Shown here: positions 128-41,541 of the stretch, in pieces
How positions within the stretch are numbered: the first letter of the stretch is position 1
How the letters are laid out: each line of letters begins with the position of its first letter
Program-made: the position numbers and the translations under genes
The notes under the pieces: model-generated
Told to the model about the DNA's origin: nothing
The model's database searches: none
Seen by the model: the letters and a program-made list of their open reading frames with translations, nothing else
NCBI RefSeq assembly: GCF_008085915.1
Contig: NZ_VSJK01000027.1
Span: forward strand, 1 to 41,541
Length of the DNA: 41,541 bases
Direction: 5' to 3'
Origin: Oceaniovalibus sp. ACAM 378
Lineage (GTDB): Bacteria; Pseudomonadota; Alphaproteobacteria; Rhodobacterales; Rhodobacteraceae

Positions 128-343
128 CACCAGCAGCGTCCAGTCGTCATGGTGCTGGTCAATGAAGGAATTCAGCTGATCGGGCAGATAGGCGGCGCCG
201 TTGTAAGTGGCCAGCAAGATGCGCACGGACCCGTGTGCGGACAGCCGCGCGCCCCGGTTCGGCCTCTTGTCTGGTCCCCTATCCGGCCTCACATCTGGGC
301 CCATAATTGGCCTTGTAATTGGCCTGTCGGCACGCTCGTTCAT
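1..343 (-). CDS. Family 2 glycosyltransferase, N-terminal part (continues at the right end of the window)
   Basis: This is the 5' part of the gene whose remainder lies at 40675-41541. Across the circular join the frame is continuous and gives a protein of 360 aa. The ATG at 341-343 (complement) is preceded by an AAGGG-type ribosome site. The first 30 or so residues are a low-complexity stretch rich in Arg, Pro, Asp and Gly. After it comes a typical GT2 start, VRILLATYNGAAYLPDQ, then the nucleotide-binding DDGSRDST motif. GT2 enzymes transfer a sugar from a nucleotide-sugar to a growing glycan at the cytoplasmic face. The gene diverges from the exporter operon starting near 481, which suggests a shared control region. 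The Arg/Pro-rich leader could be untranslated if a later GTG is the real start. Confidence 0.85.
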   Translation of the reverse strand, partial: MNERADRPITRPIMGPDVRPDRGPDKRPNRGARLSAHGSVRILLATYNGAAYLPDQLNSFIDQHHDDWTLLVGDDGSRDSTPDLVNSFAAAHPERGVRMMSGPGQGSAANFLTL

Positions 344-480
344 CGCCTGCCCTTTCTACCGGCCATCGCCCTGTGGTGCCGCTGGTCACCCTACCGTGCA
401 TCGGGCGCGGCGCCACTGGTCATCGGCCGTCATCTTATGTTACTTACCGCCAGCATTTCCATCATTTGACCGAGGCTGTT
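344..480. promoter_or_regulatory. Divergent intergenic region between the GT2 gene and the exporter operon
   Basis: About 137 bp separate the two divergent starts, so promoters for both directions should lie here or inside the poorly constrained 5' ends. I could not pick out a convincing -35/-10 pair. The sequence just left of it, inside the GT2 leader, has a direct repeat of TAATTGGCCT at 304-313 and 316-325. Confidence 0.35.
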
Positions 481-2007
481 TTGAAGGCTCCCCGCCCCCA
501 GGCACCTGCCGCCCCGACGGCAGAATCCGATACCCCCGCCGCCTCAGGCCCCGGGTCCGCTTTTGGATCGGGCAGCCCGGCCTCTCTGCGCGACGTATCT
601 GCCACAACCCGCCCCCCCGCGCCAGAGCCCGACAGCAGCGCGGACCCCGACAGCGAAGCGGCAGCGCAGGCCCGGCTTGACGCGACACGCCGCGAGCGGC
701 TGGAAATGGCGCAGCGCAAGGAAGAGATCAAAGCGATCAAGATGCGCAAGGAGCTGGATGCGCTGGAAGCGATGGTCGCCAAGGATGACGGTGACGACGA
801 CGGCCCGCTGCGCCCCGCTGCGCCCACCGGCAAGCCGGAACCGGAGCCGATCATCGCCGCCCCGCCGGTTGGCAAGGCACGCGCGAAACGGCGCCACTGG
901 GGCGCGCTGATCAGCTTTGCCGTGATGGTGATTGTGCCGGTCATGGTCTGCGTCTGGTATCTGAACCAACGCGCCGCGCCGCGCTATGTGTCGCTGGCCG
1001 GGTTTTCGGTGCGCACCGAAGAAGTCGGATCGTCAATCGAACTGCTGGGCCAGGTGGCGCAGATGTCGGGATCATCCTCGTCGGATACCGATATCCTGTA
1101 CCAGTTCATCCAGAGTCAGGAACTGGTCAGGAAGGCCGACGCGGTGCTGGATCTGCGCGCGCTCTGGGCCAAGGGCGACCCCGACACCGACTTTGTCTTT
1201 GCCTATCATCCGCCGGGCACGATCGAGGACCTGGTGACATACTGGGGCCGCATGGTCGGGGTCTATTCCGACAGCGGCACCGGGCTGATCGATCTTGAGG
1301 TACAGGCCTTCACCCCCGAAGACGCCACCCGCATCGCGCAGTTCATCTATGACGAGAGCACGCTGATGATCAACCGGCTGTCGGCCATCGCCCGTGACGA
1401 TGCCACCGGATATGCCCGCGAAGAACTGGAAAGTTCGGTCGAAGAGTTGAAAATCGCCCGCGCGGCGCTGACCCGGTTCCGCAACGAGACCCAGATCGTC
1501 GATCCCGCCGCAAGCATCCAGAGCCAGATGGGCATCCTGTCGTCGTTGCAGGGCCAGCTGGCGCAGACGCTGATCGATCTGGACATCCTGATGCAAACCA
1601 CCAGCGCCAGTGATCCACGCGTCGTGCAGATCCGCCGCCGGGTCGAGGTGATCGAGGCGCGGATCGCCGAAGAGCGCAAGAAGCTGGGCATCGGTGTGCG
1701 CGGCGAAACCGGGACGGATGTCCCCGAAGGCGAAGCCTTTGCCGATCTGGTGGGGGAATACGAACGCCTGCTGGTGGATCAGCAGTTCGCCGGCGAATCC
1801 TATACCGCCGCCCGCGCCACCTATGAATCCTCGCTGGCCGAGGCGCGGCGGCAAAGCCGCTATCTGGCCGCCCATGTGCACCCGACAACGGCGGAATCGG
1901 CCAGGTATCCGCAGTTCTATCAGACCAGCGGTTTGGTGATGCTGTTCTCTTTCCTGGCTTGGGCATTGATCGTGATGATCGGCTATGCTCTGCGCGACCG
2001 GCGCTGA
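481..2007 (+). CDS. KpsE/BexC/CtrB-like polysaccharide export inner-membrane protein
   Basis: This is a polysaccharide co-polymerase / adaptor that links an inner-membrane ABC exporter to the outer-membrane channel. The protein has a Pro/Ala-rich cytoplasmic start, a charged probable coiled coil (RRERLEMAQRKEEIKAIKMR), a first membrane segment at about residues 141-161, a long periplasmic region with coiled-coil-like helices, and a second membrane segment at about 484-504 followed by a short RDRR tail. Two flanking membrane helices around a periplasmic coiled coil is the family layout. The cytoplasmic extension of about 140 residues is longer than in enterobacterial KpsE. The start is uncertain. 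The frame is open upstream to a TTG at 319, and I chose the TTG at 481 because GAGG lies 5 nt before it; TTG 466 is an alternative. It is followed after 12 bp by the ATPase gene, so the two probably share a transcript. Confidence 0.82.
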   Translation: MKAPRPQAPAAPTAESDTPAASGPGSAFGSGSPASLRDVSATTRPPAPEPDSSADPDSEAAAQARLDATRRERLEMAQRKEEIKAIKMRKELDALEAMVAKDDGDDDGPLRPAAPTGKPEPEPIIAAPPVGKARAKRRHWGALISFAVMVIVPVMVCVWYLNQRAAPRYVSLAGFSVRTEEVGSSIELLGQVAQMSGSSSSDTDILYQFIQSQELVRKADAVLDLRALWAKGDPDTDFVFAYHPPGTIEDLVTYWGRMVGVYSDSGTGLIDLEVQAFTPEDATRIAQFIYDESTLMINRLSAIARDDATGYAREELESSVEELKIARAALTRFRNETQIVDPAASIQSQMGILSSLQGQLAQTLIDLDILMQTTSASDPRVVQIRRRVEVIEARIAEERKKLGIGVRGETGTDVPEGEAFADLVGEYERLLVDQQFAGESYTAARATYESSLAEARRQSRYLAAHVHPTTAESARYPQFYQTSGLVMLFSFLAWALIVMIGYALRDRR

Positions 2008-2019
2008 CGGGGGGCGGGC

Positions 2020-2709
2020 ATGATCGTGCTGCGCAATCTGACCAAGGAGTTCCGCATGGCCGGCACCCGCAAGGTGGTGGCCCGCAACCTGAACGTGACC
2101 TTTCCTACCGGCGTGTCGGTGGGGCTGCTCGGGCGCAACGGCGCGGGCAAGTCGACCCTGCTGCAGATCATCGCCGGCTCCGTCGCCCCCACCTCGGGCG
2201 AAGTCCTGAGCGACGGCGACATTTCGTTTCCCGTGGGACTGGCCACGTCGATGCACCCCAATATGACGGGCGCACAGAACACCCGGTTTGTCGCGCGCAT
2301 CTATGGTGTCGACACCGACGAGCTGGTTGAATTCGTGCGCGACTTTGCCGAACTGGAGGGACATTATCACCTGCCCGTGCGCACCTATTCCTCGGGGATG
2401 CGGGCGCGGCTGTCTTTCGGCATCAACATGGGGCTGAAGTTCGACACCTATCTGATCGACGAGGTGACGGCGACCGGCGACGCCGCCTTCCGCGGCAAAA
2501 GCGAGGCGCTGTTTCAGGACCGGTTGCGCGATTCGGGCGCGCTGTTCGTCAGTCACAGCATGGGGACGATGAAACGCATGTGCGAGGCGGGCGCCGTTCT
2601 GGAGAACGGCCATCTGACCTATTACGATGACATTGACGAAGCCATCGCCCAGCACGAGGAAAACATGACCCGCAAACCCGACAACGCCGCGGACGAGTTG
2701 CAGCGATGA
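2020..2709 (+). CDS. kpsT: KpsT-like ABC transporter ATP-binding protein (capsular polysaccharide export)
   Basis: This cytoplasmic ATPase powers export of a lipid-linked surface polysaccharide together with the permease encoded next to it. The 229 residues match the short KpsT/CtrD/BexA class. The Walker A motif GRNGAGKST is at 38-46, NTRFVARIYG (near 87-96) is typical of capsule exporters, the signature YSSGMRARLSF starts at 123, Walker B TYLIDEVT is at 143-150 and the switch histidine is in SHS at 179. There is no C-terminal carbohydrate-binding extension as seen in Wzt-type O-antigen exporters, which favours a capsule-type role. The gene lies 12 bp after the KpsE-like gene and about 50 bp before the permease. 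Confidence 0.9.
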   Translation: MIVLRNLTKEFRMAGTRKVVARNLNVTFPTGVSVGLLGRNGAGKSTLLQIIAGSVAPTSGEVLSDGDISFPVGLATSMHPNMTGAQNTRFVARIYGVDTDELVEFVRDFAELEGHYHLPVRTYSSGMRARLSFGINMGLKFDTYLIDEVTATGDAAFRGKSEALFQDRLRDSGALFVSHSMGTMKRMCEAGAVLENGHLTYYDDIDEAIAQHEENMTRKPDNAADELQR

Positions 2710-2761: not shown

Positions 2762-3670
2762 ATGACCATGGACACGACCCCGCCCGGCCCGGCCGGCCCG
2801 TCCGGGGAATTTGCCGCGCCACAGCGCCCCGGCTACCAGACCGGCGGGCGCGATGGTGACAGTCTGGACCGCGACACGGCGCTGCGAACCGTGCGTCAGC
2901 GTCTGCCGCGGCTTGCCAGCCTGCGCACCATCGCAGCACTGATCCTGCGCGAGATCGGCACCTCCTATGGCCGCTCCCCGGGCGGGTTCCTCTGGGTCTT
3001 CGCCCAGCCGATCCTCGGCATCGGGGTGATGGTGGCGGTCTTTTCCACCGGGTTCCGCACCCCCTCGCTTGGCACCAGTTTCGCGGTGTTCTTCGCCTCG
3101 GGGTTTTTGCCCTATATGATGTTCACCGCCGTAACCGGATCGGTGACGGGATCGGTGGGTGCCGCACGCAACCTGCTGGCCTATCCCCGCGTGACCTTCA
3201 TGGATGCGATTCTGGCGCGCTATTTTCTGGCGGTGATGGTGCAACTGGTGGTCAGCGCGGTCATTCTGGGGGTGATCCTCGGCATTCTTTATCCGCAGAA
3301 CTACCTCGGGATCGGACCGATCCTGAACGCCTATGTGATGGCCGCCGCGCTGGCGTTGGGAATGGGCATCCTGAACTGCGTTTTGACGCTGTATTATCCG
3401 GTCTGGGGCACGGTCTGGTCGGTGGCCACCCGACCTCTGGTCATCCTGTCGGGGGTGATCCTGCTGCACGACCGGATTCCCATGCCCTACCGCGAATGGC
3501 TGGAATGGAACCCGCTGGTCCATGTTGTCGGCGCATCGCGCACCGGGTTCTATTACAGCTATCGCGGCGAATACGTCGACACCGTCTATGTCTATATGTT
3601 CGCAGCGATCACCGGCACCGTGGGGCTGGTGTTCCTGCGTCGCTACTATCGCGAAAGCATGGAGCGCTGA
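2762..3670 (+). CDS. kpsM: KpsM-like ABC-2 permease (polysaccharide export)
   Basis: This is the membrane component of the polysaccharide ABC exporter. After a Pro/Gly-rich cytoplasmic tail of about 55 residues comes the family start LRTIAALILREIGTSYG and then about six hydrophobic segments, for example FLWVFAQPILGIGVMVAVF, FAVFFASGFLPYMMFTAV, and a final segment near FAAITGTVGLVFL. The overall arrangement is that of ABC-2 permeases of the KpsM/Wzm type. It follows the ATPase gene, completing an E-T-M operon. The last codon lies 21 bp before a hairpin, so the operon probably ends here. No outer-membrane KpsD/Wza-type protein and no KpsC/KpsS lipid-linker enzymes are on the plasmid. Confidence 0.9.
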   Translation: MTMDTTPPGPAGPSGEFAAPQRPGYQTGGRDGDSLDRDTALRTVRQRLPRLASLRTIAALILREIGTSYGRSPGGFLWVFAQPILGIGVMVAVFSTGFRTPSLGTSFAVFFASGFLPYMMFTAVTGSVTGSVGAARNLLAYPRVTFMDAILARYFLAVMVQLVVSAVILGVILGILYPQNYLGIGPILNAYVMAAALALGMGILNCVLTLYYPVWGTVWSVATRPLVILSGVILLHDRIPMPYREWLEWNPLVHVVGASRTGFYYSYRGEYVDTVYVYMFAAITGTVGLVFLRRYYRESMER

Positions 3671-13563: not shown

Positions 13564-13628
13564 TCCCGACCCGCCGGACCCAACATACCGGGCAGTTTTA
13601 TCCCCGGCACAGGGCGGCTTTGCCCGCC

Positions 13629-19487: not shown

Positions 19488-21656
19488 ATGACACAGGCCA
19501 CCGCTGCAGGCATGCCCAACCAGAGCCAGCTTGACGAAATCACCGATTACATTGTCTCGGGCTATTGGGAGCAGGTCGGCGGAATGCAACACGCCTATGA
19601 CACCCCGGTGCTCACGGTAAACCTGGGCGGACTTTCGGGGGATCTGGCACAGCTTGCCACCTGGGCGTTCGAAGCCTGGGAAATGGTTGCCGACATCCGG
19701 TTTTCATATGGCAACGATGCCAATGCCGACATCCGGTTCACAACCAACGCGGCCTCCAACCCGACAACAACCACATCCTATTTCACCAACGGCGTGACCG
19801 ACTGGTCGATCATCAACATTCCCACGGCATGGACCGATGAATACGGCAGCACCGTCGACAGCCACTCATTCCTGACCTACATACACGAAATCGGCCATGC
19901 CCTGGGTCTGGGACATGCGGGATACTATAACAACAACGCCAGTTTCGACCGCAACGCCATGTTCGACCATGACAGTCTGCACACCACGGTCATGTCCTAT
20001 TTCGACCAGAGCGATAACCCCAACACCACCGCCATCGATGCCGCTCCGATCACGGCCATGGCGGCCGATATTGCGGGGATCCAGCAACTTTACGGTGCCG
20101 CTTCGGGCGGGGCGACGGCGGGCGATACCACCTGGGGGGCGGGATCGACCCTGGACAACTATATCACCGAGATCTGGGACGCGATGACCGGGCCCCGCGA
20201 TCCGTCGATCCATGGCGGCGAACCGGTCACCATGACGATCTTCGACGAAGGCGGCATCGACACGCTGAACCTTGATACCGCGGCCTTTAACCGCGGCGTC
20301 ACGGTCGATCTGCGCGATGGCGGCTATGCCGGCACCGCCGCCGCACCGCAAAGCATCCTGATCGCCCGGGGCACGGTGATCGAGAACCTGATCACCGGCG
20401 CGGGCAAGGACCATGTCACCGGCAATGCCGCCGACAACCTGATCATGACCGGCGCAGGCGCCGACACGGTGCTGGCCGGTGACGGAGACGACATCATTCG
20501 CGCCAACTGGGCCCGCGATCTGACCGGCGATGTCATCGATGGTGGCCGGGGGCGCGACGTGCTGCAACTGACCGGGCTGGCCAGCCTGAGCGCGCTGATC
20601 GCCGATGCCATCGTCAAGCGTTCGGGCAATGACACCTATCTGTTCACCGACCGCAGCAATGGTGACATCCTGCTGACCCTGACGGGCACCGAAACGGTAG
20701 AGCTGCGCAATGGCGCTGGCGGTCTGATCGCCGATGCGACCCTGCCCGAATTGCTGGCGCTCTCGGATGCGGTTAAGCCCGTGGATCACGCCGCCCCGCT
20801 TACCCTGCGCGGCGACGGTGGCCATAATCTTTTGGTCGGCGACACCGGTCACGACACGATTTCAGGCGGTGCAGGCAACGACACGATCATTGGCGATGAA
20901 GGCGACGACGTGATCAACGGCGGCATCGGTTTCGACAGCCTTATGGGCGGTAATGGTGACGATATGATCATCGCCCTCAACGGGTTTGACGTCCTGCACG
21001 GTGGCGCAGGCAATGACACGATGCAAGGCAACTTCGGCAACGACACGATGCACGGCGGCAACGGCGACGACCAGATGAATGGCGGTCTTGGCGCCGATGT
21101 CATGTATGGCGACGAGGGCGACGACCAGATGACCGGATTGAACGGCGGCGATCTGATGTCGGGCGGCGCGGGCGACGACACGATCTATGGCAACGCCGGA
21201 TTCGACACTCTTACAGGGGGCGACGGCAATGATTCCATCCGTGGCGGCATCGCCTTCGATGTTCTTCACGGCGACGCAGGCGATGACATGCTGTTCGGCG
21301 ACAACGGTTTTGACACGCTGTTCGGCGGCGCAGGCAACGATATGCTGGAAGGCAACTCTGGCAACGATGTGTTGTCAGGCGGCACCGGCAACGACATCCT
21401 GCGCGGCGGACAGGGGGCGGATACGTTCGTGTTCACCGCCGGTCACGATCTGATCCGCGATTTCCAGAACAACATCGACACGATCCATATCGAGTCCGAT
21501 CTGCTGGGCAATCTGCCGGCACAGCCGACATCCCTTGCCCGGATCTCCAGCATTGTCGACGACGCGCTGGTGCTCGACTTTGGCGGTGGCAACACTCTGA
21601 CGCTGAACGGGGTGACCAACGTCGCACAACTTTATGACGACGTTCAGTTCATCTGA
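19488..21656 (+). CDS. Serralysin-type RTX zinc metalloprotease (M10B)
   Basis: This is a 722-aa secreted protease. The zinc site [11 protein letters not shown] is at 133-143 (ligands His133, His137, His143; catalytic Glu134). The Met-turn is VMSYFDQ with Met169, and the Tyr at 171 fits the serralysin fifth ligand. After the catalytic domain come a degenerate RTX block at about 300-345, a long RTX block at about 445-645, and the terminal module ([20 protein letters not shown] to DDVQFI). Serralysins are made without a cleaved signal peptide, exported by a type I secretion system and folded outside by calcium. No inhibitor gene or secretion genes are nearby. The ATG at 19488 has AAGGAC upstream. 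A perfect hairpin terminator follows at 21683-21722. Confidence 0.92.
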
Positions 21657-24670: not shown

Positions 24671-24799
24671 CTCTAGGGTGTAAACAAAACCACGTTGGCC
24701 CGAGTCGTTTGACGAGTTGGAATTCAATTGGGCGGGCGCAAGATCCGCAGTGCGGCAGAGGTGATCCGGAACAACCGGGCAAGAGGCAGAGGCAGGCAG

Positions 24800-25828
24800 A
24801 TGACGGGACAGCGCGCAGCCCCGGGCGGCACCCTTGCGGGGCATGCCCCGGCGATGGCCGATTTCTTTTTGTGCGATATGTTCTCGGCGGCGCCGAAGAA
24901 CGATCTGACCTCGATGGAACATCCGATGTTCTCGCTGGCCACCCGCCCCGATCTGCGGATTCTCGACTATGAGCATAATGGTACGCAGATTCGGGTCACA
25001 CCTTCGGTCAAGGGGCTGGCGACGATCCACGACAAGGACATCCTGATCTTCTGCATCAGCCAGTTGATGGCGGCGCTGAATACCGGGCGGGCCGTGTCGC
25101 GCACTCTGCGACTGACCGCCCATGATCTTTTGGTGGCCACCCGGCGCGAAACCTCGGGCGATGCTTACCGGCGGCTTTGCGAGGCCTTCGAACGTCTGGC
25201 GGGCACCCGGATCACCACCAATGTGGAGACCGGCGGGCTTGAAGTGACCAGCGGTTTCGGGTTGATCGAATCCTGGCAGGTGGTGCGCAAATCCCGTGGC
25301 GGGCGCATGGTGTCGGTGGTCATCACCCTGTCGGACTGGCTGTTCCGCGCGGTGCTGAACAAATCGGTCCTGACGTTGAACCGAGACTATTTCAGCCTGA
25401 GAAAGCCACTGGAGCGGCGGGTCTATGAACTGGCGCGCAAACATTGTGGCCGACAGGCGGCCTGGCACATCTCGGTCGAACTGCTGTTGAAAAAATCCGG
25501 GAGTGCCAGTCCGCGCCGGGTGTTCCGCAAGATGATCCGCGACATGATCACCGCCGACCCGCTGCCCGATTACACCATGGCCGAGGAGGCGGGCGATCTG
25601 ATCCGCTTTACCCCGCGCTTTGCCCCGGATCCGGGCGCAACGGGCGCGCGTGCGCCGCTGCTGTCCTCCGACACACTGGAGCGGGCGCGGGCGCTGGTGC
25701 CCGGTGCCGATGTGCATGCCCTTGTCGCCGAATGGCAGGCCATGTGGCGTGCCACCGGTGCCCGCCCCCTGCGCGCCCCCGACCGGGCCTTTCTGGGCTG
25801 GCTGGGCAAGCGGAATGACAAGGGATGA
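24800..25828 (+). CDS. repA: Replication initiator RepA (RPA family)
   Basis: This 342-aa protein belongs to the replication initiator protein A family that drives many Roseobacter-group plasmids. Hallmarks are DFFLCDMFSAAPKNDLTSME near the N-terminus, HPMFSLATRPDLRILDYEHN, VTPSVKGLATIHDKDILIF, and YFSLRKPLERRVYELARKHC in the second winged-helix region. It binds origin repeats and recruits the host replication machinery. I chose the ATG at 24800 with GAGG upstream; the frame extends to a TTG at 24728, and a later ATG at 24854 is also possible. It is divergent from parAB with the origin between, the usual arrangement for this plasmid type. A candidate parS follows 32 bp after the stop. Confidence 0.92.
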   Translation: MTGQRAAPGGTLAGHAPAMADFFLCDMFSAAPKNDLTSMEHPMFSLATRPDLRILDYEHNGTQIRVTPSVKGLATIHDKDILIFCISQLMAALNTGRAVSRTLRLTAHDLLVATRRETSGDAYRRLCEAFERLAGTRITTNVETGGLEVTSGFGLIESWQVVRKSRGGRMVSVVITLSDWLFRAVLNKSVLTLNRDYFSLRKPLERRVYELARKHCGRQAAWHISVELLLKKSGSASPRRVFRKMIRDMITADPLPDYTMAEEAGDLIRFTPRFAPDPGATGARAPLLSSDTLERARALVPGADVHALVAEWQAMWRATGARPLRAPDRAFLGWLGKRNDKG

Positions 25829-28793: not shown

Positions 28794-28849
28794 CGGCTTA
28801 TCCCTGACGGGGCTTGATGGGTCCTGATCGGCCCCGAATTAGCGCGACC

Positions 28850-28988
28850 CGGCCCCGGGCGTGCAGCGCGCCGGGGTATTCTTATTTGCATTTGTATTTG
28901 ATTTTTCCTTGATTCCAAATCCGGATTTGGCTTTTGTGCAAACCGGGGGCACGACTGATTCAGCCCCGAATTCAATTTTGGGGCTTTC
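28850..28988 (+). promoter_or_regulatory. Leader of the RTX gene, duplicated upstream of the RTX pseudogene
   Basis: The leader is AT-rich in the middle (28881-28914), with a perfect 16-bp palindrome CCAAATCCGGATTTGG at 28915-28930. A hairpin, AGCCCC (28962-28967) with GGGGCT (28980-28985), ends three bases before the ATG and covers the only ribosome-site-like GGGG. The same layout recurs at 31555-31694. Confidence 0.55.
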
Positions 28989-31930: not shown

Positions 31931-32737
31931 TCAGTCTTCCGCCATCCCCAGCCGCCGCATCAGCCGGCGGTCCAGCCGGCCAAAGGATTTCAGCTGCCGA
32001 ATGCTGGCGTCCTTTTCGAACCTTGCGGCCAGTTGTGGCCAGCGCAGGGCGGGCGTGGCGGCGGCCGCCTCGGGGCCTGCGTTCATGAACCGGTCGGCCA
32101 CCTTGATCCCGGCCCCCAGCCGGATTTCGATGTCACGTTCCAATACGGCCAGATCATCAACCGAATAAATCCGGTCCAGCGCCTTGGTGCCCTTCAGGGC
32201 GCGGCGGAACAGATCGTCGCGGGCGGTGGATTCGATATCCCGCCAGCCGCGGATCTTGCGGGTGGCGAAATAGGTGCAATAGACATTGTCGTAATGGTCA
32301 TGGATGAACCGCTGCCACCTCTGGTCGCCACCAAAGAAATAATCGTCGGCGGACAGGCTGGTGATCATCCGCATCCCGGTACGCTGGGGGGTGGCCAGTT
32401 CTTCGCCGCTCAGGCCCGCGGCCTGGCGCAGGGTATAGAAATAGAACGACGCGATCCGTTCAAGCGGCGCGCGCAGCACGCTGAACACAAAGCGGTCGGA
32501 CGGCAGAGTTTCCAGCGCCTCCCAGTCGATATGGCCGGAATAGAGCCTGTATCCCGGCGGAAACTGCCCCGCCCCCGGCGGTGCCCCGGTGTGGACGCGC
32601 ACCGGCGATACGGCGGAGTCACCCACCACCCGCGACAGTTCGGAATGGATCGTCTGACCGGCGGTCTTGGGGATATGCAGAAACACCACCGGGCCAGTGG
32701 TACGGCCCGTGGTGGCGGTATCGGAAGGGTCGGTCAT
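31931..32737 (-). CDS. Sulfotransferase (HIPKTAGQT type)
   Basis: This is a 268-aa carbohydrate sulfotransferase-like protein of the family that includes eukaryotic heparan/dermatan 2-O-sulfotransferase relatives. The PAPS loop FLHIPKTAGQT is at 19-29 and the 3'-phosphate segment FVFSVLRAPLERIASFYFY is at 83-101. It is a clear paralogue of the gene at 38561; they share PPGYRLY(S/A)GHIDW, SADDYFFGG and WQRF. It is the last gene of a minus-strand operon, and its ATG overlaps the acetyltransferase stop as ATGA, so the two are translationally coupled. It likely sulfates the glycan built by the double glycosyltransferase encoded upstream in the same operon. Its 3' end abuts the RTX pseudogene. Confidence 0.86.
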   Translation of the reverse strand: MTDPSDTATTGRTTGPVVFLHIPKTAGQTIHSELSRVVGDSAVSPVRVHTGAPPGAGQFPPGYRLYSGHIDWEALETLPSDRFVFSVLRAPLERIASFYFYTLRQAAGLSGEELATPQRTGMRMITSLSADDYFFGGDQRWQRFIHDHYDNVYCTYFATRKIRGWRDIESTARDDLFRRALKGTKALDRIYSVDDLAVLERDIEIRLGAGIKVADRFMNAGPEAAAATPALRWPQLAARFEKDASIRQLKSFGRLDRRLMRRLGMAED

Positions 32738-33486
32738 GGGGCGGGTTTGTCAGTCTTCAATGCGTCTGTCCTGAGGTCGAGCGTATCGGGGCGGAACGGT
32801 TTTACAGCGCCCATCTGGTTCAGCCCATGCACGAAATCGGCGATATTCGATGGGTCGAGATGGGTCATCTGCCAGGGCGCATAGCGCCACCAGGCCAGCC
32901 GGATCAGCGGTGAAATGAACTGCGGCGGCACGCGCAACCGTTTCAGCACCGCCGGATTGCCCGCCACCACGCCATAGGGCGGCACGTCTTTCGTCACCAC
33001 CGAATGGGCGGCCACAATCGCGCCGTCGCCAATCCTGACCCCCGCCGCCACATAGGCGCCATGGCCGATCCAGACGTCGTTGCCGATCACCGTGATCTTC
33101 GCCTTGGTCGGCGGTTCCTTCGCCTTGAATTTATAGCTGTGATAATCGGCGGCCCCGGCAAACCCGTCGCCCAGATCAAACAGCCGGTCGCCCAGATAGA
33201 ACGCCGGGCTGGTCGACACCCAGGTCAGCGGATGGTTTTGCCGCCCGATCTGCACCTCTTCGCCAAAGGAACAATATCGCCCGATCCGCGCGGCAAAACA
33301 GTATCCCGACACCTGATAGGAAAACGCCCCCAACTCGATGGAATGCTCGTAGGCGGTCCATTTCAGGCTCGACGGCGCTTCGATCACGCTGTGGCGGGGC
33401 AGGGCGACCGTATCGCCCGCGCCGCGGGGCAGAACCTCGATTCCGCTGGATTTCAGCCGGGCATAGGAGACCTGAACCTGGGTCAC
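32734..33486 (-). CDS. Hexapeptide-repeat (CatB-like) O-acetyltransferase
   Basis: This 250-aa protein is of the left-handed beta-helix acyltransferase type. It shows hexapeptide rows (ARIGRYCSFGEEVQIGRQ; IGNDVWIGHGAYVAAGVRIG; IVAAHSVVTKDVPPYGVVAG) and the NHPLTWVSTSPAFY segment typical of the CatB / xenobiotic acetyltransferase subgroup. The predicted activity is acetyl transfer from acetyl-CoA to a sugar hydroxyl in the cytoplasm. Chloramphenicol acetylation is the other use of the subgroup, but the operon of glycosyl- and sulfotransferase genes favours glycan modification. It starts at a GTG with AAGGAG 7 nt upstream, and that GTG overlaps the stop of the preceding gene. Its own stop overlaps the next ATG. 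Confidence 0.86.
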   Translation of the reverse strand: MTQVQVSYARLKSSGIEVLPRGAGDTVALPRHSVIEAPSSLKWTAYEHSIELGAFSYQVSGYCFAARIGRYCSFGEEVQIGRQNHPLTWVSTSPAFYLGDRLFDLGDGFAGAADYHSYKFKAKEPPTKAKITVIGNDVWIGHGAYVAAGVRIGDGAIVAAHSVVTKDVPPYGVVAGNPAVLKRLRVPPQFISPLIRLAWWRYAPWQMTHLDPSNIADFVHGLNQMGAVKPFRPDTLDLRTDALKTDKPAP

Positions 33487-36173
33487 GACGGCTCCTTTTC
33501 AGCGGGGCTGGCGGGCGCGGCGGCGGGCGGCAGCTCGGCGCGATCCGACAGGCCGTTCAGCGCGGCCAGAATCGCGGCGGCGGCAAACCCAACGGCATCT
33601 TCGCCCGGCCCGGTACTTCTCAGCGGCACGGGAACACCGTTGGGGGCGGCGCGCACCGCCTCGCCCTGGGCGCCGATGTCAAAGGCCAGCACCGGCAGGC
33701 CGGTCGCCAAGGTTTCGCGGGTGGTATAGGAAAACGTCTCGGGCCAGATCGACGGGATCAGCCAATGGGTGATGCCATGCCGTGCCGCCAGTTCGGGGAT
33801 GTCGGCGGGGATGTAATCGCCGTGCACCAGAACGGATTTCGGCAGGGCATAGGCGGGATCGATGTTGCCGATCAGGACCAGCCCGGCTGGCTTGGTGCGG
33901 TTGGGCCTGTCTTGGGCGGGTGCATTCTGCCCCCCCGATGTTAGGTCCTGCGCCGCACCCGATTCAAGCCTGCGCGCCAGTGTTTGCAGCACCGCCGCCC
34001 CCTTTTGCCGCCCGATATTGCCCAGCACGCCAATCACCGGCGCGGCGCCCGGGGCAGGGGGTTCAATCACCGGCAGGGTCTGGGGCAGGGCATGGGGACG
34101 TATCGCAATCCGCCGGGACAGGGCGGGCCAGACGGCGCGCACCTGTGCGGCGCTGTCGGCGGAAAACACCGTCAGCACCTCGGCCGCGCGCACCAGCGGC
34201 GCCCAGGCATCCTGCCAGTCGGCCAGGGTGGCCGGTGTGCCATCGGGATGGGCCGAGCGATGCGCCTGATCGTCACGGCCGCGCCGCACCGGACCACGAT
34301 ACACACCGTCAAAATCGAGCAGGGTATAGGACGGCGAAAGCGGGAAGAAATCGTGGAACAGCACTTCGATCCGGTCGTCCGGGTGGCCGCGCAGTGACAG
34401 CAGGATGTCCGGCAGGGACATCGGATCGGGGTCACCCACACCGCAGGAATAGACGATGCGCCGTCGCGGCAGGAGGGCCAGCAGGCGGAGCACAAAGGCG
34501 GTGTCGTCACTGCTGCCCCGGGTGATGCCGCTGGGCGCACAGAGTTCGATCTGCCAGCGGCGCGACCCGCCGACCCGCAGAACCACCGCCGCGCCGAGCG
34601 TTTCCAGATCGCCCGCGATACGTTCCTGCAACCAGTTTTCTGCACCGCCACCCAGCGAATGCGCCAGATAGACGGGGACGGGCGCGGGCGCGGCTCCTTG
34701 CGCCCCCAGACTGCCGGCCCAGGCCATGCCAAGGGCCAGACGCGCGGTGACCATGGGATCGGCGGCGATGAAATCCTGGATCTCCAGATCGTATCCGGGA
34801 TACCGCCGCGCGATGATGTCGTTGTTCCTTGCCACCAGCACCAGTTTTTCGGTCGAGCCGAAGCTTTCGCCGCCGCGGTGCTCAACGAACAACCCCGCCA
34901 AGCCCAGATGCCGCCCACCCAGGGCGCGCACCTTCTGGCACCAGTCGACCTCTTCGCCGTACCCCCGGCCAAAGGCGGGATCGAGCGCGCCAGCCCGCAC
35001 CAGCCAGTCGCGCGACAGAGCCATGCAGAACCCCACACCGGTGGGCGCAGGGGTCAGCAGCGCCTCGGGGTGAAAGGTGCGCGCGACCGCGTCCATTGCA
35101 TCGCCCTGACCCGGGGTCAGCAGGGTGCGCGCGCAGATTGCCGGGGACGAGAAGATCTCGGCATCATTCGACATCGGCGTGACGCTGGCGACGTTTTCGT
35201 GCTGCAACATCGGGCGCACCAGACGCGATGCCCATCCGGCGGGCACCAGAGCGTCCGAGTTGAGCAGGATCACCGGCCCCTCGGGTGTATCGTCCACCGG
35301 CGCGGGCTGGGCTGCGGCGGCTGCCAGCCCGGTATTGACCGAACGGATAAAGCCAAGGTTCTCGGGGTTTTCGATCAGCTCGATATCGTGACTGTTCTGG
35401 CGGGATTCGACCCAATCGCGCAGAAACGGACGGACGGCGGCATCGCTTGATCTGTCCTCGATCAGGATCAGCCGCCAGGGCAGGTCGGTATGTTCTTCGA
35501 TCCGCGCCAAGGCCAGCTTCAGCAGATCCAGCGCGTTATAGACCGGCAGGACAATGGTGATCCGGCAGGGGGCCAAAGGTTCGATCCGGTCGATATTGGC
35601 GTCACCGGTCAGGAACAACCGGCTTTCCAGTGGGACGGCCATATGCAGCGTGTTCAGCCCCAGCCCGCGTTTCACCTTTGCGCGATAGGCCGGATCGCGG
35701 GTGATGAACCACCCGGCAACCGCCGGCAGCAGGCAAAATCCGACCCAGAGAAATCGCAAAAACAGCTTTATGCGGGCCGGGCCGGGGGCGGGCAGGGGCA
35801 GCGACAGCGGGTAGATCTCGACACCCCCCGGCACGGGCGTGGCCAGCAGCCCCGGCGCATCGCAGGTCGCCAGCGTGTCAAGCGTGCAGGGCAGGTCCAG
35901 ATCGAACCCCACCTCGGACGGAATACCGAGGGAGGCGCCCACATCCTCGCGGCGCAGGCGGGGGATGATTTCGGCGCGGTTGCCGCCAAGCACCAACGTG
36001 ATCCGCGCCGCCCGCGCCCATCCCGACACCCTCAGCCGTCCCTGATCCACGGTCACCCGCTCGACATAGCCGATCGTCTCGCCGTCGGTATTGCGCAACT
36101 CGGCAGGCGCCCCCGAAAGCACCAGATGCGTCGCCGCATAACGGTCGTTCAGGGCAATCAACCGCCTAAACAT
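33483..36173 (-). CDS. Double glycosyltransferase: GT2 domain followed by GT4-like domain (896 aa)
   Basis: The N-terminal 170 residues hold a beta-rich part (VDQGRLRVSGWARAARITLV) and a hydrophobic segment near FLWVGFCLLPAVAGWFI. A GT2 domain follows, with ITIVLPVYNALDLLKLAL, the DXD-like ILLNSDALVP, and GRGYGEEVDWCQKVRALGGR. From about residue 500 a GT-B-like domain begins (VYLAHSLGGGAENWLQERI), with VIGVLGNIGRQKGAAVLQTL and the EX7E motif in WPETFSYTTRETLATGLPVL. One chain may therefore add two sugars in sequence. It leads an operon with an acetyltransferase (GTGA overlap) and a sulfotransferase (ATGA overlap). AGGG precedes the ATG at 36173. The upstream region has 27-bp tandem repeats. 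Confidence 0.87.
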   Translation of the reverse strand: MFRRLIALNDRYAATHLVLSGAPAELRNTDGETIGYVERVTVDQGRLRVSGWARAARITLVLGGNRAEIIPRLRREDVGASLGIPSEVGFDLDLPCTLDTLATCDAPGLLATPVPGGVEIYPLSLPLPAPGPARIKLFLRFLWVGFCLLPAVAGWFITRDPAYRAKVKRGLGLNTLHMAVPLESRLFLTGDANIDRIEPLAPCRITIVLPVYNALDLLKLALARIEEHTDLPWRLILIEDRSSDAAVRPFLRDWVESRQNSHDIELIENPENLGFIRSVNTGLAAAAAQPAPVDDTPEGPVILLNSDALVPAGWASRLVRPMLQHENVASVTPMSNDAEIFSSPAICARTLLTPGQGDAMDAVARTFHPEALLTPAPTGVGFCMALSRDWLVRAGALDPAFGRGYGEEVDWCQKVRALGGRHLGLAGLFVEHRGGESFGSTEKLVLVARNNDIIARRYPGYDLEIQDFIAADPMVTARLALGMAWAGSLGAQGAAPAPVPVYLAHSLGGGAENWLQERIAGDLETLGAAVVLRVGGSRRWQIELCAPSGITRGSSDDTAFVLRLLALLPRRRIVYSCGVGDPDPMSLPDILLSLRGHPDDRIEVLFHDFFPLSPSYTLLDFDGVYRGPVRRGRDDQAHRSAHPDGTPATLADWQDAWAPLVRAAEVLTVFSADSAAQVRAVWPALSRRIAIRPHALPQTLPVIEPPAPGAAPVIGVLGNIGRQKGAAVLQTLARRLESGAAQDLTSGGQNAPAQDRPNRTKPAGLVLIGNIDPAYALPKSVLVHGDYIPADIPELAARHGITHWLIPSIWPETFSYTTRETLATGLPVLAFDIGAQGEAVRAAPNGVPVPLRSTGPGEDAVGFAAAAILAALNGLSDRAELPPAAAPASPAEKEPS

Positions 36174-36719: not shown

Positions 36720-38564
36720 ATGACCAAACCCGCCATCTCTGCCGCACCTGAAACCATCGATATCGGGCAGGGCCTGCAGGTGTCGCTGTTTGCCGCCGAG
36801 TCTGCGGCACGGGTACCGCCCGAAAGTCTGGGCGCGGGGGGGCCGGAGGGCGGCGAGAAAGACAGGCCAGTTGCGATTCTGGCCTGGCATGGCGGCGGCG
36901 GGGTGGACGGCGCCCCTGACATGCTGGCACCGTTCTGTCGGCAGTTGTCCGCCGGGGGTGCCGATGTGATCGCCGCCGGATACCGCACGCTGAACCGCGA
37001 TGGTGCCACGCTCGAGCAGATGCGCGCCGATGCCGCACATGCCTTGAGCTGGGCGCGAAATTGGGCAGGGGGACAGCAGCCAGAGGCGCGGCTGTTCCTG
37101 CTGGGCGCGTCCTTTGGCGGGCTGCTGGCGCTGGATGCGGCGCTGGAGGATGACACTGGGATTGCGGGACTGATCCTGCTCAATCCGGTCACCGATACCG
37201 GACCGGGCGGGTTCGCCAACCGTGTGGTCGACCCTGCCGTTCACGCCGCCCTGTCGCCCCGGGCGCTGCTGGCGGATGGCAAGACGGGTGATGAATCCGG
37301 GCATCCGCTGCTGTCCCGGCTGCGCTGTTTTATTGCCCATGGCGGCCAAGACGAGGTGGTGCCGATCGCCGCCGCCCGAGAGTTCGCTGCGCTATGGCCC
37401 GCCGGGCGCTGCGTGATCAAGGAATATCCAAATGCGGGCCATGGGTTTTTCAACCGCCCGCCCCATGACGAAAATGTTGCCCGGCTGGTTCTGGCCTTTA
37501 TTCGCGAGGAAGCTTCCGCAGTAACGACACCAGCCGCCGAAAAGTCGCCCAAAAAGCCACGCAAACCATCCAGCCTGTTGCCTGCGGGGGCGACGCTGGT
37601 CTTTGGTATCGGCGCGCAGAAGGCCGGCACCAGCTGGCTGTTTGAACAGCTGCGCGCCAGCCCTGACTGCCATACGGTGCCCACCAAAGAGCTGCATTAT
37701 TTCGACGCCCTGCACATCAAGGGCGAACAGAGCCACATCAACGACCGCCTCGCCCACCTGCGCCGGGTGGTCGATACCCTGACACCCGGCGCCGATCCGG
37801 CCAATCGCGGACGGTTGCGCACCATTCAGGTGCTGGCCGAGCGTCTGTCGATTCATGCCACGACCCCCGGCGATCACCGGGCCTATATCAATCATCTGCT
37901 GACCGGTTATGCGGGGCAAAAGATCATCTGCGATTTCACCCCGTCCTACTCCGTGCTGCCGCCCGAGGTCTTCGCCGAAATGGCCGAAATCGGCCCGGCG
38001 CGGTTCATTTTCATCCTGCGCGATCCGGTTGACCGGATCTGGTCGCAGATCCGCATGTCGATCAGCGCCGCACAGCCGAAACTGGCCGATGCGGCGTTCG
38101 AAACGGCCTGCGCCGCCCGTGCCGCTGAAATGCACGCGGGGCGCGATCTGGCGCGCATCCCCCGGGCCAATTACGCTGGCACACTAGAGGCGCTGGACCA
38201 GTCCGTGCCATCCGGATCGGTGCATACGGTGTTCTATGAAGACCTGTTCACCCAAGCCAGCATGGACGAGGTCTGCGCCTTTCTCGACATCGCCCCGCTG
38301 CCCGTCGAGGCGGACAAAAGGGTCGGGCTGGGGCGGGTGTCGTCGCTGCCGCCGGAAACTGAAGCACTGCTGTTCGCCGGTCTGCGCCCCCAGTACGAGG
38401 CGGCGTTCGAGCGGTTCGGTGCCGCTGTGCCAAGCGCATGGCACAGCCGGTATGCCGCGCTTTGCGGTGAAACCGTGCCTGTTGTGGCACCACCAACAGC
38501 GCCAGATCTGCCGCGCCGCGCCGCATCGCGGCTGGTTGACCTGCTGAAGGGACGCGGGAAATGA
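36720..38564 (+). CDS. Alpha/beta-hydrolase (esterase-like) fused to sulfotransferase
   Basis: This 614-aa protein has two enzymes in one chain. Residues 50-262 form an alpha/beta hydrolase of the acetyl-esterase type: oxyanion HGGGG (57-61), nucleophile Ser131 in GASFGG, Asp211 in HGGQDEVVP and His241 in NAGHGFF, so the triad is complete. A Lys/Pro-rich linker (about 268-288) leads to a sulfotransferase: PAPS loop FGIGAQKAGTSWLF (295-308), 3'-phosphate segment FIFILRDPVDRIWSQIRM (429-446). The combination suggests removal of an acetyl group followed by sulfation of the freed hydroxyl, which is inference. I chose ATG 36720 because the longer frame to 36438 lacks similarity. Its stop overlaps the next start as ATGA. 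Confidence 0.86.
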   Translation: MTKPAISAAPETIDIGQGLQVSLFAAESAARVPPESLGAGGPEGGEKDRPVAILAWHGGGGVDGAPDMLAPFCRQLSAGGADVIAAGYRTLNRDGATLEQMRADAAHALSWARNWAGGQQPEARLFLLGASFGGLLALDAALEDDTGIAGLILLNPVTDTGPGGFANRVVDPAVHAALSPRALLADGKTGDESGHPLLSRLRCFIAHGGQDEVVPIAAAREFAALWPAGRCVIKEYPNAGHGFFNRPPHDENVARLVLAFIREEASAVTTPAAEKSPKKPRKPSSLLPAGATLVFGIGAQKAGTSWLFEQLRASPDCHTVPTKELHYFDALHIKGEQSHINDRLAHLRRVVDTLTPGADPANRGRLRTIQVLAERLSIHATTPGDHRAYINHLLTGYAGQKIICDFTPSYSVLPPEVFAEMAEIGPARFIFILRDPVDRIWSQIRMSISAAQPKLADAAFETACAARAAEMHAGRDLARIPRANYAGTLEALDQSVPSGSVHTVFYEDLFTQASMDEVCAFLDIAPLPVEADKRVGLGRVSSLPPETEALLFAGLRPQYEAAFERFGAAVPSAWHSRYAALCGETVPVVAPPTAPDLPRRAASRLVDLLKGRGK

Positions 38565-39382
38565 GCCGGCTGCGCAGCTTGCTGGGCGGGCGGGCACGGG
38601 CGGCTTCTGGCCCTGTGGTGGTCTTTCCCCATATCCCGAAAACCGCGGGTCAGACGGTGATTTCCGAGTTGCGCCGGGTGCTGGGCGAGGCGGCCCATTC
38701 GCCGGTCCGCACCCATGCCGCGGCCCCCGAGGATGCGCAGATGCCGCCGGGATACCGGCTCTATGCCGGGCATATCGATTGGGTCGATCTGGAGACCCTG
38801 CCCGACAACCGCTTTGCCTTTACCCTGCTGCGCGACCCCTATGAACGGATCGCGTCGTTCTATTTCTATCTGCTGCGCGAGGCGGCAAAACTGACCCCCG
38901 AGGAATTGGCGACCAAAGCGCGCACCAACATGCGAATGATCTCGACCCGGTCCGCCGACGATTATTTCTTTGGCGGCAACCGGCCCTGGCAACGCTTCGT
39001 CCTGGATCACTATGACAATTTCCAAACCGCATATCTGGCCACCGGGCGGATCCGTGGTGCCAAGCAGATCGATACCCTGCCGCGCTCTGACTGGGTGGGT
39101 TGGGCGCTGAGCGGGGCACAACGGCTACAGGGGATTTACGGGCTGAACGATCTGGACCGGCTGGAAAGCGATCTGGCCGCGCGGCTGGGAACAACAGTGA
39201 ACCTGACCGGTAATTTCGTGAACGCGGGGCCGGATCTGGCGCCAGAGGCCAGAGCCGGGACGCGCCCGCGCCGCTGGCCCGATCTTGTCGCCCGGCTCGA
39301 ACAGGACGGCAACGCCGCCCGGCTTGAGCGGTTTGCCGAAACCGATGCCGACCTGATCGAGCAATTGGGGATGAGACAGTGA
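38561..39382 (+). CDS. Sulfotransferase (HIPKTAGQT type)
   Basis: This 273-aa protein is a paralogue of the sulfotransferase at 31931. The PAPS loop FPHIPKTAGQT is at 22-32 and the 3'-phosphate segment FAFTLLRDPYERIASFYFY is at 85-103. Shared segments such as GYRLYAGHIDW and SADDYFFGGN indicate a duplication within the plasmid lineage or acquisition from related clusters. The ATG overlaps the stop of the esterase-sulfotransferase gene, so the two are coupled, and a GT61-like gene follows 25 bp later. Two sulfotransferases from one message suggest sulfation at more than one position of the same glycan. Confidence 0.87.
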   Translation: MSRLRSLLGGRARAASGPVVVFPHIPKTAGQTVISELRRVLGEAAHSPVRTHAAAPEDAQMPPGYRLYAGHIDWVDLETLPDNRFAFTLLRDPYERIASFYFYLLREAAKLTPEELATKARTNMRMISTRSADDYFFGGNRPWQRFVLDHYDNFQTAYLATGRIRGAKQIDTLPRSDWVGWALSGAQRLQGIYGLNDLDRLESDLAARLGTTVNLTGNFVNAGPDLAPEARAGTRPRRWPDLVARLEQDGNAARLERFAETDADLIEQLGMRQ

Positions 39383-39407: not shown

Positions 39408-40556
39408 ATGGCTAAATCTACGTCTGACCAGATCGTCGAACTGCGCGATGTTGCCGTCGCCCCCTATGTCTATAAGCGGCCGAAGTTTCGCGGCGGAATC
39501 GAAGCGCCGCTGGCCCCGCCACAGGGGCGAATGCGGCGGGGCGCGAACCTGCGCGACGATCCGCAGCCGATCGATCGCGGCGGGCGGCGGCTCTTTGGCG
39601 GTGGCGATCTGGACCGGCTAAAGGGGCGATATCTGTACGGCGGGCCGATGTGGAACCATTTCGGCCATTTCTTCGTCGACTGTATCCACCGTCTCTGGGC
39701 GCTCAAGGCAGGGGGCACATCCTATGATGGAATCGTCTTTCTGGCGGTTCAGGGTCTGCTTGGTGTGCGCAGCGACGCCGATCTGGCCGCAGCACAGCCG
39801 CCCGGTTTTCTGATCGACCTGATGCGCCTTCTGGATATGCCGGATGTGCCGGTGATCATGGTGCGTGCGCCGATGCTTTTTGACCGTCTGGACGTGCCCG
39901 AGGCGGGTACTGCTCCACGGCAACCCATCGCGCCGTTTTACCGCCCCTATCTGGACGGGTATCAGGCCGCGCTTGAGGACAAGCTGGCCCTGCATATCTC
40001 GCGGGCGCCGGAACGGCTCTATCTTGGCCGATCGCACCTTTTGGCCAAGGGTGGCGTGCTGGGGTCCAGCCATCTGGAACAGGCGCTGAAGGCTGCCGGC
40101 GCCTATGTGTCGACCCCCGAAGCGGTGGGTCTGCCGGTGCAGTTCGGCCATCTTCTGGGTGCCAAAACGGTGGTGTTCGACGAAGGCAGTGCCGGCCATC
40201 CGACCCAGGTGATGTCCCGCACCCCGACGGAATATCTGATGTTTCCACGCCGCGCGGCCAACGAAATCTATGGCGATGCGATTTCCCAGCGTGCGCCTTT
40301 TGCGCTGCTGGCGGAAAACGACAACATCGCCGTGCTGCCCGACCGCCACGGCTCTACCTCGTCACCCGGCGGGCTGGCCGCTTACCGCGATCCCGGTGCG
40401 GTCTGGGATGGGTTGGTGCGGCGCGATCTGGTGCAGGGAGCCTTCGACATGGACGCCTGGCGCGCTGCCGAAGCAGCCGACCTGATCGCCGCCCGGTCCG
40501 CCACCCCGGAAATCGAGTCGGTGCGGCGCGCGGCATTGGAAAGCGTGCGCGGCTGA
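39408..40556 (+). CDS. GT61-like glycosyltransferase (DUF563)
   Basis: This 382-aa protein contains the segment YGGPMWNHFGHFFVDCIHRLWAL at 77-99 (split here as YGGPMWNHFGHFF and VDCIHRLWAL), characteristic of GT61-like proteins common in Rhodobacteraceae polysaccharide clusters. RAPERLYLGRSHLLAKGGVL and VVFDEGSAGHPTQ further on fit the C-terminal half of the family. Cytoplasmic sugar transfer is expected; the donor is unknown. The ribosome site is poor, only GGGAAAATGAAAACTG, so translation may depend on coupling to the preceding gene. It is the last gene of the plus-strand operon. Confidence 0.8.
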   Translation: MAKSTSDQIVELRDVAVAPYVYKRPKFRGGIEAPLAPPQGRMRRGANLRDDPQPIDRGGRRLFGGGDLDRLKGRYLYGGPMWNHFGHFFVDCIHRLWALKAGGTSYDGIVFLAVQGLLGVRSDADLAAAQPPGFLIDLMRLLDMPDVPVIMVRAPMLFDRLDVPEAGTAPRQPIAPFYRPYLDGYQAALEDKLALHISRAPERLYLGRSHLLAKGGVLGSSHLEQALKAAGAYVSTPEAVGLPVQFGHLLGAKTVVFDEGSAGHPTQVMSRTPTEYLMFPRRAANEIYGDAISQRAPFALLAENDNIAVLPDRHGSTSSPGGLAAYRDPGAVWDGLVRRDLVQGAFDMDAWRAAEAADLIAARSATPEIESVRRAALESVRG

Positions 40557-40674: not shown

Positions 40675-41541
40675 TTACAGCCGCCCGGTGCGCGCCAGCA
40701 GCCGCAGCATGCGGTCGCCCGCGTCGGTCTGGCGATAGATCCCAAGGTTGTCCAGCGCCGCCAGGCAGGTGCGGCGGCGGCCTTGTCGGGCAGCGGCAAA
40801 GGCGGTGAACAGAGTGCGGGACTCAGGTGTCAGCAGTTCGGCACAGCCGGTCAACCCCGCCAAATTTCTGCTCAGCCAGTCGGAATAGTGCCGGTTGGCC
40901 AACATTCCCAACCGCGCCATACGCCCGCGCATCCCGCCATGATTGCCCAATACGTTGGTCTTGTGCTGGCGATAGAACACACCGGGGCGGCGGTCGAAGA
41001 CGATGGTACCGCCTGCCCCCGCAATCAGCAGATAGATCCACCAGTCATGGAACGGCACATCCGCCGCCAGCGCCGCGGGCACCGACCGGGCCACCAGCGC
41101 CGCCGCCGCAGGGCTGAGAACCATGGAATTCCCCCCAAGGATGTTCTGCACCAGTGCATTGGCAAAACCCGGCGGGCGCATCATATGCGGCGACACGCCG
41201 GTGAATTTCATCTCGGCGTCGGTCAGATACAATCGGCTGGCATAGGCGATCACCGCATCGCCCACGGGGGGCAGCGGGGCGTCACTGCCCTCGCCCGCCA
41301 GATCGCGCAAACGGCGGCGCATCATCAACTGGGCACGACCCAGCTTATGCGGCATCCAGACGTCGTCCTGATCGGAAAATGCCATCCACGATCCGGGGCG
41401 TGTGCCCTCTGCCGTCAAGGTCAGGAAATTCGCGGCACTGCCCTGCCCGGGCCCCGACATCATCCGGACCCCCCGTTCGGGATGGGCGGCGGCAAAGCTG
41501 TTCACCAGATCAGGAGTAGAGTCGCGCGATCCGTCGTCCCC
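40675..41541 (-). CDS. Family 2 glycosyltransferase, C-terminal part (starts at 343 across the circular join)
   Basis: This is the main part of the 360-aa GT2 whose N-terminus is at 1-343. Bases 41415-41541 duplicate 1-127, so the overlap must be counted once. The acceptor/metal motif appears as WMAFSDQDDVWMPHKL, followed by PFHDWWIYLLIAGAGGTIVF and RPGVFYRQHKTNVLG. The DQDDxWxPxK and H(D/N)xW pattern is that of GT2 rhamnosyl- and galactosyltransferase-like enzymes of surface polysaccharides; donor identity cannot be read from sequence. The C-terminal 80 residues are helical and Arg-rich. Confidence 0.88.
   Translation of the reverse strand, partial: GDDGSRDSTPDLVNSFAAAHPERGVRMMSGPGQGSAANFLTLTAEGTRPGSWMAFSDQDDVWMPHKLGRAQLMMRRRLRDLAGEGSDAPLPPVGDAVIAYASRLYLTDAEMKFTGVSPHMMRPPGFANALVQNILGGNSMVLSPAAAALVARSVPAALAADVPFHDWWIYLLIAGAGGTIVFDRRPGVFYRQHKTNVLGNHGGMRGRMARLGMLANRHYSDWLSRNLAGLTGCAELLTPESRTLFTAFAAARQGRRRTCLAALDNLGIYRQTDAGDRMLRLLARTGRL
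41415..41541. repeat. Terminal overlap, copy 2 (circular molecule)
   Basis: Identical to 1-127 in direct orientation. The length of exactly 127 is a common assembler k-mer, which fits an assembly overlap. Confidence 0.95.

Follow-up and report, generated by a model that had tools for sequence, protein, structure and literature searches.

A gene on a probable plasmid of Oceaniovalibus sp. ACAM 378 encodes an alpha/beta hydrolase and a sulfotransferase in a single chain of 614 residues, and homologous fusions were found in seven further sequences from related bacteria. The gene lies on C31, one of the 116 contigs that make up the 5.36-Mb genome; this contig, 41,541 nucleotides long and analysed as a whole, is referred to below as the window. 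On the strength of its sequence and setting, we consider the chances roughly even that the fusion would work in the cytoplasm as a tailoring enzyme with two activities, modifying a polysaccharide that is encoded on the plasmid and exported by a KpsMTE-like ABC system. The architecture is new, but its domains come from well-known families and its logic has a famous animal precedent. In the literature searched, which took in few subscription journals, we recognised no description of a natural esterase/hydrolase-sulfotransferase protein or of this locus.

Domains, conserved residues and start of the fusion protein

The fusion gene, its parts and the gene that follows it are:
36720..38564 (+): HYD-ST3 fusion, open frame, 614 aa
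36720..37505 (+): hydrolase domain (HYD, aa 1-262), with H57-GGGG oxyanion motif, nucleophile elbow GAS131FG, D211 and H241
37506..37571 (+): Lys/Pro/Ala/Ser linker (aa 263-284), delimited by sequence, low pLDDT and variability in relatives
37572..38561 (+): Sulfotransfer_3 domain (ST3, aa 285-614), with GAQKAGT, KE324LHYF and RDPVDRIWS442
38561..39382 (+): ST2, a Sulfotransfer_2 protein, part of the same chain in L012, L054 and L055

The maximal ORF starts at ATG 36438. Given that the 95% identical copy in a Puniceibacterium metagenome-assembled genome (MAG) differs upstream of 36720 through nine inserted bases and a few substitutions, and that the start of the Tateyamaria ORF and the annotated start of the Sulfitobacter guttiformis protein both align near 36720, this position is likely the start codon. 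The stop codon overlaps the ATG of ST2 by 4 nt (ATGA, 38561-38564). No signal peptide was apparent when the fusion sequence was inspected by eye.

Pfam matched the N-terminal half to Hydrolase_4 (2.7e-12, 46.9 bits against a cut-off of 27) and to Abhydrolase_3 (7.1e-10, 39.4 bits against 25), while NCBIfam gave only weak sub-threshold matches for the fusion (chloramphenicol hydrolase, LipP1). By its predicted motifs HYD is an alpha/beta serine hydrolase with an HGG oxyanion motif and a Ser-Asp-His triad. An earlier note on this DNA had picked out Ser131, Asp211 and His241 as that triad, and all three are kept in 12 of 12 aligned hydrolase rows; H57, G59 and G60 are kept in 11 of the 12. Est2 of Thermogutta terrifontis is both the nearest solved structure by sequence (8.9e-13) and the first-ranked Foldseek match of the full-length fusion model, a model of modest confidence (pLDDT 65, pTM 0.43) that is uninformative on domain coupling. 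The solved chains of Est2 measure 286-287 aa and hold the esterase alone, whereas the window protein adds a sulfotransferase.

We find it improbable that HYD is a non-catalytic or decaying scaffold beside a sulfotransferase that works alone. The one exception in the alignment, the homologue of G168 (L055:2388-4772), has lost the HGGG oxyanion motif and other glycines, and between the window and the MAG, where substitutions are few, dN/dS is higher for HYD (0.46) than for ST3 (0.15), with 0.16 for ST2 and 0.03 for the GT61 homologue described below. However, even the G168 protein retains Ser, Asp and His, the conservation across the other rows is as given above, and hydrolase homologues that stand alone carry the same residues as the fused ones.

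The Lys/Pro linker described in the earlier note is evident in the sequence at ~263-284, where Lys, Pro, Ala and Ser abound; pLDDT is low at 269-289 and the segment varies among relatives. Beyond it, Sulfotransfer_3 (PF13469) was matched at aa 294-524 (6.3e-14, 53.2 bits against a gathering cut-off of 27), in agreement with the sulfotransferase and its two PAPS motifs as first proposed. We take GAQKAGT to be the 5'-PAPS motif and RDPVDRIWS442 to be the 3'-PAPS motif. K301, G303, K323, E324, H326, F328, R434 and S442 are kept in 20/20 sulfotransferase rows, a set that excludes the near-identical MAG copy and a broken copy of Dinoroseobacter shibae.

A profile of 19 sulfotransferases was compared with the PDB and retrieved 3rnl (3.9e-17), heparan sulfate 3-O-sulfotransferases (8.4e-7) and the CurM ST (7.6e-5), while its match to the NDST chain 1nst was insignificant (E 0.89). 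In the profile alignment the Glu of KE-x-HYF falls on the Glu of 'NEVHFFD' in heparan sulfate 3-O-sulfotransferase 1, which is presumably the catalytic base of that enzyme. A model of the ST3 domain (300 aa), likewise modest (pLDDT 69, pTM 0.69), gave 3rnl, the CurM ST, NDST1 (8ccy, rank 3) and the 3-O-sulfotransferases as top Foldseek matches, of which only three reached E <= 0.001. Predicted fold and motifs thus point to a heparan-sulfate-type sulfotransferase. For ST2, matches in the PDB were insignificant (heparan sulfate 2-O-sulfotransferase, E 0.24).

The probable plasmid and its polysaccharide export genes

The first 127 nucleotides of the window are repeated exactly at its end (41415-41541). 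Together with genes for RepA and a ParA-like protein and with a ParB_N match slightly under cut-off, this terminal repeat makes the window a probable RepA-type plasmid, circular and complete at ~41.4 kb. The other genes of relevance are:
319..2007 (+): KpsE/BexC/CtrB-like polysaccharide export protein (TIGR01010 2.5e-54, 184.8 bits, below the curated cut-off of 437.5)
2020..2709 (+): ABC transporter ATPase (KpsT-like)
2762..3670 (+): ABC-2 permease (KpsM-like)
24728..25828 (+): plasmid replication initiator RepA (RPA; PF10134 4.5e-99)
31931..32737 (-): second ST2-like sulfotransferase, 56% identical to ST2 over 253 aa, no Pfam match, 4-nt overlap with HEX
32734..33486 (-): HEX, hexapeptide-repeat O-acetyltransferase-like protein (Pfam/NCBIfam; NCBIfam scores below cut-offs)
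33483..36173 (-): two-domain glycosyltransferase, 896 aa, GT2 above cut-off and GT1-like matches below, divergent to the fusion
39408..40556 (+): GT61-type glycosyltransferase homologue, 61% identical to an S. guttiformis protein annotated as glycosyltransferase 61 family, with no Pfam match itself

The permease, ATPase and KpsE-type protein of an ABC-dependent (KpsMTE) capsule set are therefore all present, the KpsE score lying under the curated cut-off. Among the window proteins scanned, Pfam matched no KpsC/KpsS lipid-primer enzyme. Five sulfotransferase genes were found on the plasmid: the fusion, ST2, the second ST2 and two further Sulfotransfer_3 proteins at 3725-4684 (-) and 8663-9427 (+). 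RTX calcium-binding-repeat proteins, some with serralysin-type domains, are encoded at 12964-16253 (-), 19488-21656 and 26184-31430 (+), and RTX-like genes also sit beside the homologous loci of R. persicicum, G010, G070 and D. shibae. The gene at 40675-41505 (-) encodes a 276-aa protein without a Pfam match; its homologues, found in 7 of 18 relatives' stretches, lie among the same export and glycosyltransferase genes. A role in anti-phage defence was considered and dropped, PADLOC giving no match at E <= 0.01 for the fusion, ST2 or this 276-aa protein.

HEX was considered as the obligatory acetyl donor for HYD. It is present in 13 of 18 genomes, own included, but no match at E <= 1e-30 was found in the genomes of G168, G562 (each 99% complete) and R. 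persicicum (completeness not given), all three of which bear the fusion, nor in the incomplete Puniceibacterium MAG. HEX is thus not an obligatory acyl source. Homologues of the two-domain glycosyltransferase occur in 10 of 11 genomes, own included. An APS-kinase gene is present in all 10 genomes examined, the window's among them, and also in 11 of 14 control genomes, and is hence ordinary.

Fused and separate homologues in related bacteria

Counting the window's own, eight fused sequences were found (window, L009, L010, L011, L012, L053, L054 and L055), all from the family of the window or from named Roseobacteraceae/Paracoccaceae. Scanning genome contigs yielded three fusions, in the Puniceibacterium MAG (95% identity), in Tateyamaria sp. 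(60%) and in Roseibacterium persicicum (49%). Among 72,556 plasmid records 17 matched, and one, pSD118 of S. guttiformis, whose record bears the title of a complete sequence, covered at least 80% of the query. Its protein, WP_015063277.1, is 50-53% identical to the window's over hydrolase and ST3 and is followed by the same GT61 homologue; unlike the window protein, it runs to 838 aa with ST2 as a third domain. Its annotation mentions the alpha/beta hydrolase fold alone.

When 394 genomes of the family were searched at E <= 1e-30, 117 matched some part of the fusion, and four held one stop-free frame across both domains (G000, which is the window's own, G010, G070 and G168). In 292 genomes of the order, at E <= 1e-50, four were fused (G000, G070, G168 and G562). 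Since identities and spacing are the same at both loci, G562 and S. guttiformis were counted once. Five other genomes of the window's genus have unfused sulfotransferases only. The window's own was the sole match spanning both domains in the draws from the class (385 genomes, E <= 1e-50) and phylum (398 genomes, E <= 1e-15), which included own-family genomes, scored at most three candidates per genome and are blind to independent fusions using other hydrolases.

The earlier note had asked whether a sequencing error joins two genes and whether the fusion is absent from all relatives. An artefact of sequencing or assembly is excluded for practical purposes, given that the MAG copy, at 95% identity, has the same 614-aa frame and that six further homologues, on pSD118 and in other genomes, are fused as well; relatives do carry the fusion.

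Beyond what the earlier note described, the frame continues through a Sulfotransfer_2 domain (Pfam) in three relatives, giving tri-domain chains of 838 aa (L012), 825 aa (L054) and 794 aa (L055), and the next gene of the window corresponds to that third domain. ST2 is likewise a separate next gene in the MAG and in Tateyamaria. No ST2 match was found in the L011 stretch (13.6 kb) or the L053 stretch (18 kb), although the contig of L053 has one in another stretch.

With HYD alone as the query, 7 of the 394 genomes from the family matched at E <= 1e-12. Four of these matches are parts of fusions, those in G190 and G356 stand alone at 54%, and the one in G040 is distant. Another stand-alone copy was found in G527. 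In G1120, of the same class and another family, a 316-aa hydrolase homologue lies close to genes for a hexapeptide transferase and for a Sulfotransfer_2-like protein.

The surroundings of these genes were compared in 18 relatives' stretches of more than 10 kb. Not all are independent, as L012 is nearly identical to L067, two pairs come from one genus each, and L013 and L014, with L056 counted with them, are D. shibae. Recurring neighbours were the two-domain glycosyltransferase, the hexapeptide acetyltransferase, ST2-like genes, the KpsE-like protein and two ABC exporter subunits; no export genes were found in the stretches of L012, L013, L056, L067 and L071. The export ATPase is adjoined, on the same strand, by HYD alone in L051, L052 and L073 (the ORFs overlapping in L051 and L052), by ST3 alone in L068, L069, L070 and L072 and by its broken copy in L014 of D. 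shibae, and by HYD-ST3 in L053, with one RTX gene between them in L011. The tri-domain gene precedes KpsE in L054 and L055, a GT61 gene intervening in L054. In the window the order across the circle joint is fusion, ST2, GT61, one reverse gene and then KpsE. Tateyamaria has the gene set within one 18-kb stretch, more distant from KpsE. L071 (ST3) and L056 (a distant hydrolase) have none of the recurring neighbours. The occurrence of HYD, ST3 or HYD-ST3 at one genomic place is, as read from these predicted genes, a Rosetta-stone pattern.

D. shibae has its ST3 gene divided between two plasmids (L014:11557-11931 on pDSHI04 and L013:10019-10603 on pDSHI02). Its N-terminal part lies at the left end, and its C-terminal part at the right end, of a ~7.4-kb element that is present on both plasmids and holds an IS1182 transposase, thiC, a recombinase, a Mu-type transposase and an ATPase. 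The split looks like an insertion followed by an arm exchange between the plasmids.

A tree of 20 ST3 rows has starred branches that force at least two changes between the fused and unfused states, and in it the fused ST3 of G010 clusters (95/91) with one that is unfused. A history with one clean fusion is not supported; fusion, fission and transfer between genomes are possible routes. A tree of 12 hydrolase rows, with a single starred branch, gives no answer on the fusion history.

These patterns bear on a rather unlikely alternative, namely two independent tailoring activities, HYD trimming acyl groups and ST3 sulfating other positions, with fusion merely co-locating them at the export site. 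In sister loci each domain is found by itself at the one genomic position, and ST3 changed between fused and unfused at least twice. Moreover, no ST3 match was found in the stretches around three lone HYDs, and none of the seven genomes checked that have an unfused ST3 gave a HYD match at E <= 1e-8, so that this type of sulfotransferase needs no HYD. The eight fused sequences nevertheless suggest some gain from coupling.

Proposed function and comparison with known systems

The explanation that we favour, a tailoring enzyme of an exported polysaccharide, is based on the domains, the conserved residues, the eight natural fusions, the genomic setting and the APS-kinase gene. HYD would deacylate the polymer or a precursor, the group removed being most likely acetyl; ST3, using PAPS and with Glu324 as the proposed base, would sulfate the same polymer prior to export; and ST2, as the next gene here and within the same chain in the three relatives, would add another sulfate. 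We infer that both domains are active, that the polymer is their substrate and that acetyl is the leaving group. PAPS is made in the cytoplasm. The fusion would meet the polymer or its precursors there, in view of this source of PAPS, the APS kinase, the lack of a signal peptide by eye and intracellular capsule synthesis. ABC-dependent capsules are built inside the cell on a lipid anchor and then exported by KpsMT, as described in an excerpt of PMC11041684.

The earlier note went further, proposing that one protein could replace an acetyl by a sulfate on one and the same sugar. What it observed is correct and holds more widely than it could tell, architecture, residues and glycan setting all having stood; its mechanism is a fair hypothesis, which the separate HYD and ST3 genes and the lack of a HEX match in fusion genomes leave only plausible. 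That the freed position would be the sulfated one we regard as possible but doubtful. In its favour, two genes that otherwise share one place are fused here, in a layout common with NDST. Against it, ST3 occurs without a HYD match (7/7), HYD without a linked ST3, and the fusion without a HEX match. An acyl group that is the N-acetyl of an amino sugar would call for no acetyltransferase, whereas for an O-acetyl another donor must exist in those genomes.

Like the window protein, NDST, with which heparin sulfation begins and which N-deacetylates and N-sulfates GlcNAc, joins a deacylase and a PAPS sulfotransferase in one chain. Its C-terminal sulfotransferase domain is heparan-sulfate-type, as is that of the window protein by profile and fold similarity, and the two belong to one fold group. 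In NDST1 the deacetylase folds as a (beta/alpha)7 barrel whose His-His-Asp triad binds metal, next to an extra non-catalytic N-terminal domain (excerpt of PMC10864358). Such a metal-dependent barrel is not found in the window protein, which has an alpha/beta Ser-Asp-His hydrolase instead (Pfam, Foldseek). Moreover, NDST is an animal enzyme, whereas the window fusion is bacterial and lies in an export locus. We suggest only tentatively, and think it unlikely, that the fusion is an independent natural bacterial counterpart of NDST, with deacetylation and then sulfation at the same position and a three-enzyme sulfation chain in the three relatives. A deacetylase-sulfotransferase fusion for polysaccharide has been engineered with a polysaccharide N-deacetylase, according to PMC13353177; it is man-made, while the fusion of the window occurs in nature and has a serine hydrolase as its deacylase.

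A further system that combines a sulfotransferase, structurally related to ST3, with an acyl-cleaving hydrolase is that of CurM and the olefin synthases. In CurM and the olefin synthases ST precedes TE. It is very improbable that the window pair would act, as they do, on an acyl thioester or small precursor by sulfonation, hydrolysis and decarboxylation. The nearest solved structures include the CurM ST, and the CurM system too joins a sulfotransferase to a thioesterase (excerpt of PMC3903477), but going by that excerpt these enzymes work within polyketide synthases on carrier-bound acyl chains, unlike the window protein. Furthermore, the domain order is reversed in the fusion, the window proteins scanned with Pfam have no carrier-protein or ketosynthase domain, and the locus is one of glycosyltransferases and polysaccharide export.

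If both domains of the proposed tailoring enzyme act in sequence, the deacetylase-sulfotransferase logic of heparin synthesis would have been built at least twice by nature, with the second instance relying on a serine hydrolase, whose family does not depend on metal, within a seemingly soluble bacterial protein. Expression of active NDST in bacteria is named as a key bottleneck of heparin biosynthesis in PMC13353177, for which a natural bacterial deacetylase-sulfotransferase would be a useful template. The fusion also provides a concrete gene for testing the presumed, partly plasmid-borne sulfated polysaccharides of these bacteria.
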